Shown one piece after another: positions 21,306-30,492 of a stretch of DNA of 30,688 nt. Position 1 is the first letter of the stretch, and every line of letters begins with the position of its first letter. The DNA comes from a virus, in the IMG/VR virus record IMGVR_UViG_3300005253_000119, positions 1 through 30,688 of that record, one strand, 5' to 3'. The translations under genes and the position numbers were made by a program. Under the pieces are notes generated by a model. That model was not told the DNA's origin. It ran no database searches and saw only the letters and a program-made list of their open reading frames with translations.

Positions 21306-23390
21306 CTACCTCCTAACTAATACCCTTCTTGGGGTAGTTGTGCGATAGCCGGGATTATCCACTACTGTCTCGGGTGTGAAGTCGCTCAAGATAGACCTTT
21401 CACAGTTATGAACTAGAATACCATTCGCATAATATTCAGGGACATCTTGAACAGAGAGATTATAGACAGATGCCTGACCTCTAGGGCTTACGCCTAAGCA
21501 TCTCACGGCGGTTTGCGGCTTTACATCTTCCCGAACAGAACTTGCTGTGCGATGGCTCAATAGTTGAGTATTCCTGGCTACAATGGAGGCAGACTTTGAG
21601 AACTGGCAGCCTATTTCCCCATAATCTCTTGGCGAGATTAGCTCGCCCTTCATCTGTCCTCGCCCACAATCTATGCCCAACTCTGGCGAGAGGACGAATT
21701 CTGGCAAGGTGCTCAAGGTCATAGACGTGCCCCCCCATATGCTCTGACATATGTAAGCCATTGCCCTTACATTCAAAGTTAGAGAGTTCGTTATGAGATG
21801 AGTCATCGTCCTTATGGTGGATAGTATGCCCAGTAGGTATTTTCCCATAGGCATCTTCCCACATAACTCGGTGGAGAAGTCCCTTTGCTGACCTGAAATA
21901 CATTCTGTCGGTGCGCCGTTTGGCTTGCGGGTATCTGTGATACTTAGTTCCCTTGTAGATAACTGTTTCTCTTTCCATACGTCCATTCTATCATTGTATC
22001 GCAGACAAGTCAATGGAACCCAACCTTTACCCTTAACAAAGACAGGATGGTCAGCAGTTCCTACCAGCTTAGAGCCATCTGAAAATGAAGCCTCAAATAC
22101 TTCAGCATTGCTTTGTGTCAGTCCGCTAGCAACCACTGGCTGATATCCTTGCCTCATAGCAACTAAATCTCCAACCTTAACACTTTCAATTGGCTTCTCC
22201 CCAGTAATTGTTTTTATCATTGTTCCAGCAATAAGGCAAGCCATTAAATGGAATTTAGCCTCTTGATCTATTTTCTCCCCCTTAAAGACAAAACTAAATT
22301 TCTCCCTTACATAATTGCTGAGGTCATTAAAGATATATACTTTGTTAAGCCGGTGCATGCCCTGAACCAGTTTAATCTGTAACGCTTTGTCTAAACTGTG
22401 TTTAGGTTCACTAACCGGCCATCCCTCAGAGGTATATGCTTGTCTCTCCCCTGTCTCCTGATGATTACCACCTACCCGCTTCAATACATTCCGTCCTTCA
22501 GTAATTGTCTTGAAAGCCTGCACATGGTCGTGAATACTCATCTCCGACCCTGGCCAATACTCTTGAAAACCAAAGAAATCACCAGTTGCGGGGCTACCTG
22601 CAAAGAATAATCCCGCTGCATTTACCCTCCCGAAGTCGTGCCCTGAATATATAGGCCAGCTTTTATCAACATCAAACCTTGGAATCAAGCATATCTTATC
22701 ATCAAAGGCACTGTAGACTAAGCCTTCCAGCCCTTTCCATAGTCCGAGAACATACCTATCTTTATAGACTCCCTCAAACTCAGCTAGACGCTGCTTATAG
22801 TCCTCCGGTAATAACGGATTGTCATAACTGGAGGCTTGGAATACATCCCCCTTATGCTCACGAAAGAACATGCGATAAAGATAATGTGTCGGCGGACCAG
22901 GATTAGTCGCTGCAAATATCTGGTGAGGAAAGCCAGGTAATCTTAACCTGCCCTCTAGCATCTGCCAGTCATCCTCTGTAGTTTCTATCGCCTCATCAAT
23001 GCCTACGAAGCCAATACCACCAGCACCAAGGGAACCGAGTTTTAATGGGTCATCCAGCCCACCAAAGAGGATTTGAGAGCCATTAGTCAGTGTAATTAGC
23101 CCATCTGATTTATTGTAGGATGCTATAAGTTCTTTAGGACATACTAACTCCAGAAATGTCTTGAGAGTTGATAGCCCTATGGTAGCTCTAACCTTTCGAC
23201 AGATATAGCCGAAGTTACCCTTGTGGTCCAAAGACAGCTTTAGAGACTTAGCACAGAGAGCTAGGGTTTTGCCGGCGCCAAAGGCACCAGAGAATAAAGA
23301 CCTTGAAGCCTGAGATGCCACGAACTCATCTTGCGGTTTGTTGATTGGCTCCCACACTAATTCAACCTTAGCTTTAGTCGCTGTTACCAT
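21306..23390 (-). CDS. terL: Terminase large subunit (TerL), interrupted by an intein
   Basis: A 694-aa precursor; removing the intein (residues 385-662) leaves 416 residues, the usual TerL size. The ATPase has a Walker A-like SGAFGAGKT (34-42) and a Walker B-like GFVGIDEA (127-134). The ATPase end ATNPGPP lies at 161-167. The RNase H-like nuclease starts at IYSGHDFGRVNAAG (247-260, Asp252 the probable metal ligand). The C-extein is only 32 residues (CERSILSD...). The join FHLMA-CERS corresponds to the last nuclease motif, where other TerLs have DxxDAxRY-like sequence. TerL drives ATP-dependent packaging and cuts DNA at the portal. The start at 23390 lies inside the end of a 52-aa gene, preceded by a GGAG site. 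Confidence 0.9.
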   Translation of the reverse strand: MVTATKAKVELVWEPINKPQDEFVASQASRSLFSGAFGAGKTLALCAKSLKLSLDHKGNFGYICRKVRATIGLSTLKTFLELVCPKELIASYNKSDGLITLTNGSQILFGGLDDPLKLGSLGAGGIGFVGIDEAIETTEDDWQMLEGRLRLPGFPHQIFAATNPGPPTHYLYRMFFREHKGDVFQASSYDNPLLPEDYKQRLAEFEGVYKDRYVLGLWKGLEGLVYSAFDDKICLIPRFDVDKSWPIYSGHDFGRVNAAGLFFAGSPATGDFFGFQEYWPGSEMSIHDHVQAFKTITEGRNVLKRVGGNHQETGERQAYTSEGWPVSEPKHSLDKALQIKLVQGMHRLNKVYIFNDLSNYVREKFSFVFKGEKIDQEAKFHLMACLIAGTMIKTITGEKPIESVKVGDLVAMRQGYQPVVASGLTQSNAEVFEASFSDGSKLVGTADHPVFVKGKGWVPLTCLRYNDRMDVWKEKQLSTRELSITDTRKPNGAPTECISGQQRDFSTELCGKMPMGKYLLGILSTIRTMTHLITNSLTLNVRAMAYICQSIWGGTSMTLSTLPEFVLSPELGIDCGRGQMKGELISPRDYGEIGCQFSKSASIVARNTQLLSHRTASSVREDVKPQTAVRCLGVSPRGQASVYNLSVQDVPEYYANGILVHNCERSILSDFTPETVVDNPGYRTTTPRRVLVRR
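21405..22238 (-). other. Intein within TerL (278 residues)
   Basis: Residues 385-662 of the TerL precursor. Block A is CLIAGTMIKTITGEKPIES with nucleophile Cys385. Block B is GTADHPVFVKGKG (TxxH). Block F/G reads VYNLSVQDVPEYYANGILVHN, ending in the His-Asn dipeptide at 661-662, and the +1 residue is Cys663. All splicing residues are present, so it should be active. The region between the N and C halves of the splicing domain (about residues 471-636) does not look like a LAGLIDADG or in-frame HNH domain; instead it overlaps an out-of-frame HNH gene. It is inserted in the nuclease active-site motif of TerL, a typical place for an intein. Confidence 0.9.
21481..21978 (-). CDS. HNH homing endonuclease nested out of frame inside the TerL intein
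   Basis: A 165-aa protein in the -1 frame relative to TerL. The core HTIHHKDDDSSHNELSNFE (residues ~54-72) has the HNH-nuclease pattern HxxHHxDxDxxNNxxxNL in altered form, preceded by LHRVMWEDAYGKIP and followed by GLHMSEHM. The C-terminus has a probable zinc knuckle, CLHC (128-131) and FCSGRCKAA (~146-154). It starts at the ATG at 21978 (MERETVIYKGTK), just after the intein's N-splicing half, with a stop four codons upstream; only a weak SD precedes it. It ends before the intein's C-splicing half. It would cut inteinless terL genes and spread the intein. Translation could be by internal initiation or a -1 frameshift. Confidence 0.78.
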   Translation of the reverse strand: MERETVIYKGTKYHRYPQAKRRTDRMYFRSAKGLLHRVMWEDAYGKIPTGHTIHHKDDDSSHNELSNFECKGNGLHMSEHMGGHVYDLEHLARIRPLARVGHRLWARTDEGRANLAKRLWGNRLPVLKVCLHCSQEYSTIEPSHSKFCSGRCKAANRREMLRRKP

Positions 23391-29376: not shown

Positions 29377-30492
29377 TCATGCTTGCCCCTTCTCTATGGC
29401 TGCAATAGCCTTTAATATTGGGTATATCTGCTGTGGCACCACCGCATTGCCTAAACATCTAAGTCTGTCCACCCTATTGGGAATCCCATGAGCCACTCTA
29501 CCCAGTTCGGGTTCAACTGCCCAGTATTCTTCCCCTCTAATTGCGATACCCTGTCCTCTAACTTCCGGATACCGCCCCCTGGTGTTAGTCTCTCCATCTG
29601 ACCGCCCCCGGTTGGTGTCTTTGGTGTCGGCCACAATACCTGTTTCCTCAGATTCGCACAGCCCCCCTTGTTCGCTTCGGGTGTCCTCTCCTCTGGCTTT
29701 CGTATGTCCATTCTCATATCCATCACGCTTGGAGTAGCCCACAATGAAGATTCTATCTCTCCGGTGCGGGGCATTGACGGCACAAGCTGGAATAAGAAAT
29801 GATGTCGTTTCATAGCCCTGACTCTCCAGGTCAGATATACAATCGTTGAACCCCATATTGAGGAGTCCAAACACATTCTCTGCAACGCACCAAGTGGGCC
29901 TGATTTCTGATATGACCCTAAGCATTTCTGGCCAGAGCCAACGGTCATCATCCTTGCCTTTTCGCTTCCCGGCATTAGATACAGGCTGGCAAGGGAATCC
30001 TCCTGTAATAAGGGTAATTGGGGGGATTGTTCCTGTTGCCTTGGATTGGTCATCTGTATCTGCTGGTTGATTGTCTGGGACTGGAGAACTAGCTTGCCGT
30101 CTGGTTGAAGCCGATATGCTCTCTCGCCCACCTTGGCTGGCTGCCCGTCCTTCGTGTAAAGAGTCTCCACTTTCGCCCCTGCTTCGTTGGCTTGTGGTGT
30201 TCTCCATAGTTTCTTCACCGCCGTTGCTAACCCATCCCCTGCCTTCGGCGATATCCCTTTCCGATTGTTGTTCCCCTCGACCGAAGGCGTTGGCCAAAGC
30301 TTCTTCGATTGTTTCTTTGTTGACATCTTTAATATCTCCTATTATTGGCACCTGAGGCCAATGCTTTTTTAATACCTTCTGACAGTAGGCATTGTTCTCT
30401 ACCATCAAGACTGTTGTAAAGCCAGCCCATTCAGCGGCTAAATCAATCCCACCTATGCCGGTGAAGAGGCTAATGTGGGTTAGCTCTACCAT
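29377..30492 (-). CDS. DNA cytosine-5 methyltransferase (Dcm-like)
   Basis: A 371-aa C5-MTase. Motif I is LFTGIGGIDLAAEWAGF (SAM binding, 9-25). Motif IV is GGFPCQP (164-170) with catalytic Cys168; motif VI is ENV (205-207); motif VIII is PHRRDRIFIVGY (242-253). Motif X is LGNAVVPQ (347-354). It transfers a methyl group to cytosine C5, and with no restriction enzyme here it is probably an orphan that protects phage DNA or alters regulation. Unusual points: a low-complexity insert (about 70-155) between the motif III region and motif IV, and a low-complexity target-recognition region (about 255-320). Both coincide with the nested ORF. A GAGGTAGG site supports the start. Confidence 0.9.
   Translation of the reverse strand: MVELTHISLFTGIGGIDLAAEWAGFTTVLMVENNAYCQKVLKKHWPQVPIIGDIKDVNKETIEEALANAFGRGEQQSERDIAEGRGWVSNGGEETMENTTSQRSRGESGDSLHEGRAASQGGRESISASTRRQASSPVPDNQPADTDDQSKATGTIPPITLITGGFPCQPVSNAGKRKGKDDDRWLWPEMLRVISEIRPTWCVAENVFGLLNMGFNDCISDLESQGYETTSFLIPACAVNAPHRRDRIFIVGYSKRDGYENGHTKARGEDTRSEQGGLCESEETGIVADTKDTNRGRSDGETNTRGRYPEVRGQGIAIRGEEYWAVEPELGRVAHGIPNRVDRLRCLGNAVVPQQIYPILKAIAAIEKGQA
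29451..30326 (-). CDS. ORF nested out of frame in the methyltransferase; candidate overlapping gene
   Basis: A 291-aa ORF in the +1 frame relative to the methyltransferase, wholly inside it. AGGAGA (30335-30340) lies 8 bases before the ATG, an ideal spacing. The product is hydrophilic with four LWxTP motifs (residues 10-14, 40-44, 195-199, 231-235), a KKLWPTPSVEGNNNRKG start and the C-terminus NPNWVEWLMGFPIGWTDL (272-289). I recall similar LWPTP and GFPxGWTDL sequences in phage proteins annotated as hypothetical or methylase-related, but cannot check. The same DNA encodes methyltransferase residues 56-347. Translation has not been shown; the alternative is a chance ORF in a constrained sequence, which the motifs make less likely. 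Confidence 0.65.
   Translation of the reverse strand: MSTKKQSKKLWPTPSVEGNNNRKGISPKAGDGLATAVKKLWRTPQANEAGAKVETLYTKDGQPAKVGERAYRLQPDGKLVLQSQTINQQIQMTNPRQQEQSPQLPLLQEDSLASLYLMPGSEKARMMTVGSGQKCLGSYQKSGPLGALQRMCLDSSIWGSTIVYLTWRVRAMKRHHFLFQLVPSMPRTGEIESSLWATPSVMDMRMDIRKPEERTPEANKGGCANLRKQVLWPTPKTPTGGGQMERLTPGGGIRKLEDRVSQLEGKNTGQLNPNWVEWLMGFPIGWTDLDV

Follow-up and report, generated by a model that had tools for sequence, protein, structure and literature searches.

The C5-cytosine DNA methyltransferase (C5-MTase) locus of the viral record IMGVR_UViG_3300005253_000119 very probably encodes a single enzyme made of two subunits, alpha and beta, that are read from two frames of one strand. The window, i.e., the whole 30,688 nt stretch that was analyzed, carries alpha as a 371 aa C5-MTase gene on the minus strand (29377..30492; PF00145, E 1.7e-42; PHROG 363, E 2.3e-76). 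Beta is a 291 aa gene with an ATG start on the same strand (29451..30326). It begins 166 nt into alpha and lies wholly within it, in alpha's +1 frame. An earlier reading of the DNA by itself (the sequence-only reading) had pointed to this 291-codon gene, out of frame in the C5-MTase, and we found it as described. Its product does resemble database proteins: PHROG 1008, labeled "DNA methyltransferase," is beta's own family (E 4.1e-39), though beta is without any catalytic motif.

Judged by tests of openness, conservation and initiation, the nested ORF is a conserved protein-coding gene. The null for openness was built by shuffling alpha codons among synonyms, which keeps the alpha protein and its codon usage. 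The +1 open run in the window is 295 codons vs. a mean of 91 in the shuffles (p = 0.003, the floor of the test), and the +2 frame is null-like (41 codons vs. 50). In homologs retrieved with alpha as the only query, 53/55 loci have a +1 frame open beyond this null, as do 83/83 of those found via beta; the +2 frame is significantly open in only 2/55 and 1/83 loci, respectively. The two alpha-found exceptions are a contig-end fragment (L138) and a locus (L095) that was considered as a frame-swapped fusion and rejected, as a single-base shift displaces the two frames in concert.

Conservation was tested on homolog pairs with both alpha proteins fixed and the codons shuffled. Inside the overlap, conservation of the nested protein exceeds that imposed by alpha, with a median z of 5.5 and 93% of the pairs, which are not independent, above 2. 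Outside the overlap the median z is 0.1, and the test is therefore calibrated. The +2 frame reaches z 2.9 inside the overlap, presumably as a by-product of the double constraint. Across 75-96 homologs, beta residues G132, T198, P199, P273, M280, G281, P283 and T287 are near-invariant. The sequence-only reading had taken stop codons in the homologs as the mark of a chance ORF; the homologs keep the frame open and the nested protein conserved, and therefore do not bear that mark.

The start of beta is preceded by an AGGAG Shine-Dalgarno sequence (SD; 30336..30340, minus strand) that falls within the I-G-D codons of alpha motif III. The upstream sequence, AATAGGAGATATTAAAG-ATG, places AGGAG 9 nt before the ATG. 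The SD had been noted before, but at an ideal spacing, and the spacing is slightly long. Of 171 loci, 47 have a nested-frame start with an SD of at least 6 bases (11.5 expected), and 3 have one in the third frame (13.8 expected).

Alpha is recognizable as a C5-MTase by its catalytic PC motif IV, its ENV motif VI, its other core motifs and its M.HhaI fold. Motif IV reads GFPCQP and includes the catalytic Cys168 (29983..30000, minus strand), and motif X reads GNAVVP (29434..29451, minus strand). The alpha model made with AF2 (rows from annotated phage records were left out of the input alignments) superimposes on M.HhaI with a Z of 25; the match extends along the full chain, but only 199 of the 327 M.HhaI residues align. 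pLDDT values exceed 90 in the catalytic core and in both motif X helices. Residues 258-334 are mostly below 55, and the stretch that joins motifs VIII and X (29485..29727, minus strand; about residues 256-336) is unfolded in the model and poorly conserved. In ordinary C5-MTases, the recognition region is followed by motif IX, which has the form LTPRECARLQGFP, and then by motif X. The MTase had been credited with all its motifs, but only motifs I, IV, VI, VIII and X were found in the alpha frame, and motif IX is absent from it. Thus, alpha does not have the makings of a one-chain C5-MTase: the chain lacks motif IX and, going by the model, is without a folded target-recognition region.

The missing parts have counterparts in beta. 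The sequence-only reading had listed four LWxTP motifs and a WVEWLMGFPxGWTDL end in the nested frame, and all are present; beta ends with LNPNWVEWLMGFPIGWTDLDV. The first two motifs, LWPTPS (30282-30299) and LWRTPQ (30192-30209), form an N-terminal pair (30192..30299, all minus strand) inside the insert between alpha motifs III and IV, in an extension partly common to one homolog (L049). The second pair (29619..29744, minus strand), LWATPS (29727-29744) and LWPTPK (29619-29636), lies on the C-terminal side, and both are proposed target-recognition modules on account of nested-frame selection in the region. LWxTP modules lie upstream of motif IX in the beta family, with 0 to 6 per protein and a median spacing of 40 residues. 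The proposed motif IX is LNPNWVEWLMGFPIGW (29469..29516, minus strand); the same DNA reads VEPELGRVAHGIPNRVD in the alpha frame. In hhalign comparisons, the beta C-terminus, LNPxWVEWLMGFPxGWTDL, aligns with a profile of motif IX from 37 one-chain C5-MTases with E-values of 1.9e-4 to 3.9e-4 and probabilities of 36-47%, while controls (five other beta segments and a reversed segment) gave 0.33-0.61. A motif IX HMM built from one-chain MTases had no significant match among the nested ORFs, and the motif IX assignment therefore rests on the profile-profile result together with position.

The strength of selection on the two frames differs by region. Between motifs IV and VIII it is strong in both frames. 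Between motifs VIII and X, selection is mainly on beta's frame. In the recognition region, the nested frame given alpha has a z of 6.8, and alpha given the nested frame 2.0; identity there is 0.20 for alpha and 0.38 for beta. In the motif IX stretch the corresponding values are 3.7 and 1.7. These regional values and the extension shared with L049 bear out the earlier suggestion that the III-IV insert and the low-complexity target-recognition region of the MTase were shaped by the second frame.

Beta has no Pfam match, and its profile has no match among PDB sequences. A Pfam scan of 75 beta proteins found no family in more than one member. Modeled alone by AF2, beta has no confident fold (pTM 0.27), and because of this low confidence the Foldseek list for the model was not used.

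Motif IX and the recognition region are missing in alpha and are apparently supplied by the nested frame. We therefore read beta as a subunit of one enzyme, and not as the separate second product implied before. What we infer of the complex, its activity, its DNA target and its biological role is as follows. Alpha would be the catalytic subunit, with AdoMet binding and the catalytic Cys (motifs I-VIII and X) but without the small domain. Beta, translated from its own start inside alpha, would supply that domain. The LWxTP modules would read the DNA target, and motif IX would dock them against alpha. The holoenzyme may then methylate the phage DNA, with protection from host restriction as the simplest role.

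Rearranged loci found in nature have the layouts that two parts of one enzyme would lead one to expect. In Brevibacillus borstelensis (L176), alpha is 176 aa and ends after motif VIII, and beta holds five LWxTP modules, motif IX and then motif X (GNAVVP) in one frame. A viral contig (L028) has a similar layout.

The beta family is widespread. Matches were found in 137 phage records, 212 IMG/VR stretches and 140 stretches from a bacterial and archaeal genome collection. Eighty of these 140 were kept, and their titles list Bacillota, Bacteroidota, Pseudomonadota, Chloroflexota and other phyla, and the two-frame arrangement also occurs in some plasmids. The nested gene had been proposed as an overprinted partner of phage MTases. 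It is a partner of phage and prophage C5-MTases, but the suggested range was too narrow, as bacterial genomes of several phyla and some plasmids carry it too. In total the two-frame arrangement is found in hundreds of phage and bacterial loci, usually with one half annotated. The Roseovarius MAG contains five two-frame MTase loci on one chromosome (L169-L173) with identical match scores; these copies are perhaps related prophages.

Beta and alpha occur together. The alpha frame overlaps beta in all 220 loci with a beta match; 212 of these have only the fixed frame relation, the other 8 have a shift or split, and no standalone beta was found among them. Only two alpha-profile matches were without beta, and both are one-chain controls. 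In a C5-MTase sample drawn with the Pfam model, the +1 frame is significantly open in 1/37 of those that match it from end to end. Where the Pfam match breaks off after motif VIII, it is significantly open in 16/24, six of these 24 loci having been drawn from genomes chosen for carrying beta. Plasmid-borne MTases with motif IX in frame have a mostly closed +1 frame, with one exception (L224). Plasmid-borne MTases of Salmonella (L143) and Acinetobacter (L231) have no in-frame motif IX and have long +1 ORFs, with a motif IX-like sequence at or near the terminus. Three loci (L288-L290) from genomes of the same order as genome G001 hold a more divergent MTase family with an equal layout. The +1 ORFs of these loci end in MLPSEYEKLQGFPVGWTEV or close variants, which look intermediate between beta and ordinary motif IX forms.

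Three other explanations of the nested frame were weighed. That beta is a chance ORF, open through alpha's amino acid composition, is extremely improbable. This composition does lift the null run to about 90 codons, but 295 codons vs. 91, family-wide openness, conservation beyond alpha's constraint and the enriched start and SD led us to reject it. A programmed frameshift could instead fuse the N-terminal part of alpha to the nested frame and yield one chain with motif IX. After motif VIII the nested frame does hold the recognition region and motif IX in one-chain order. We nevertheless regard this as very unlikely. Beta's own start and SD are strongly enriched, and beta is conserved across motifs IV-VIII as well, a segment that a fused chain would take from alpha alone. 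To reach motif X, which is in alpha's frame, the ribosome would have to shift a second time. The two overlapping ORFs of L176 are plainly separate.

Beta could also be a genuine overprinted protein with an independent function, e.g., a regulator, an anti-defense protein or a toxin, that is merely housed in the MTase gene. Its own start and SD and its lack of Pfam and PDB matches fit such a protein. A possible analogy is the prophage C5-MTase M.BatI, whose recognition domain is unusually short and which kills Escherichia coli even without its catalytic Cys (PMC8936443). However, in the 220 loci beta is never found without alpha, its end aligns to motif IX, and it is in MTases without an in-frame motif IX that beta occurs. 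The beta frames of L176 and L028 extend into motif X. A separate function is thus unlikely, though less so than a frameshift, and we retain the two-subunit enzyme as the preferred reading.

Two-polypeptide C5-MTases are known. In M.EcoHK31I, the small-chain gene is nested out of frame in the large-chain gene, as observed here for beta. M.EcoHK31I (target YGGCCR; Lee, Kam and Shaw 1995, cited in PMC3404938) is the closest precedent, and is compared here by its published description. As PMC3404938 describes it, the large chain holds motifs I-VIII and X and the predicted recognition domain, and the small chain only motif IX. By this account, alpha shares with M.EcoHK31I a large chain with motifs I-VIII and X, and beta shares motif IX on the small chain (here with an hhalign E-value of 2e-4 and a negative HMM result). 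Target recognition is predicted on the large chain in that description, whereas here it is apparently on beta, as the regional selection and the unfolded stretch of alpha suggest. A further difference is that M.EcoHK31I belongs to a restriction-modification system, and the very wide spread across phages and bacteria also sets the alpha-beta family apart from it. What is new relative to enzymes of this kind is therefore the apparent placement of recognition on beta and the wide, mostly unannotated spread.

M.AquI (CYCGRG) is also a C5-MTase split into two polypeptides, the larger described as having motifs I-VIII and part of the variable region and the smaller the rest and motifs IX-X (PMC3404938). 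A small chain with both IX and X, as in that description, does not occur in the window, where motif X is in alpha's frame. The Brevibacillus layout is closer to M.AquI than the window is.

In Paenibacillus larvae phages, the beta family appears as a second "DNA cytosine methyltransferase" CDS. An example is BLOOM_57 of Paenibacillus phage Bloom (L001), which is located in the overlap, where the nested match falls, and belongs to the beta family. BLOOM_56 and BLOOM_57 are both annotated as "DNA cytosine methyltransferase," although BLOOM_57 is the nested frame and has no catalytic motifs. We found no statement of a subunit role for PHROG 1008 or BLOOM_57. In our literature search, M.EcoHK31I was named in a few papers, but nothing was found on the nested phage family.

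It is conceivable, at somewhat less than even odds, that these loci represent a large and old class of C5-MTases that has gone unrecognized in phages and several bacterial phyla, with the catalytic and DNA-reading subunits in two frames. The number of nested tandem modules (0 to 6 LWxTP) could then set the number of methylated targets. If so, many phage "orphan" C5-methyltransferases that are treated as single proteins are half-enzymes, and a recoded gene that expresses the annotated chain would destroy the other half. A long same-strand overlap with both products probably belonging to one enzyme would be well suited to studies of how overlapping genes evolve. It also gives a concrete family for gene finders, which usually miss or mislabel beta.

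Out-of-frame genes inside phage methylase genes are also known from ShiLan-type HNH insertions (PMC11855218). These are homing endonuclease insertions confined to the insert, whereas beta overlaps the conserved catalytic domain, and no endonuclease match was found for beta. A second overlapping pair is present in the window. The terminase large subunit (21306-23390, minus strand) has an intein-like insert with weak Hint/Intein_splicing matches (residues 385-662). Out of frame inside it is an HNH_3 endonuclease ORF (21481-21978, minus strand; 1.7e-10), reminiscent of hidden HNH insertions (PMC11855218). In one homologous viral contig (L016:2397-3074), motifs III and IV of alpha are separated by an in-frame insert that contains CxxC and His-rich stretches. 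The insert resembles an HNH endonuclease in appearance, and Pfam gives only a weak treble-clef match. L016 and L028, which are separate viral contigs, have an extra stop inside alpha motif IV, in the contexts GGFP-TAG-CTG-CQP and GFPC-TGA-QPF, respectively. A homing scar, recoding or error are candidate causes. The nested frame stays open in both.
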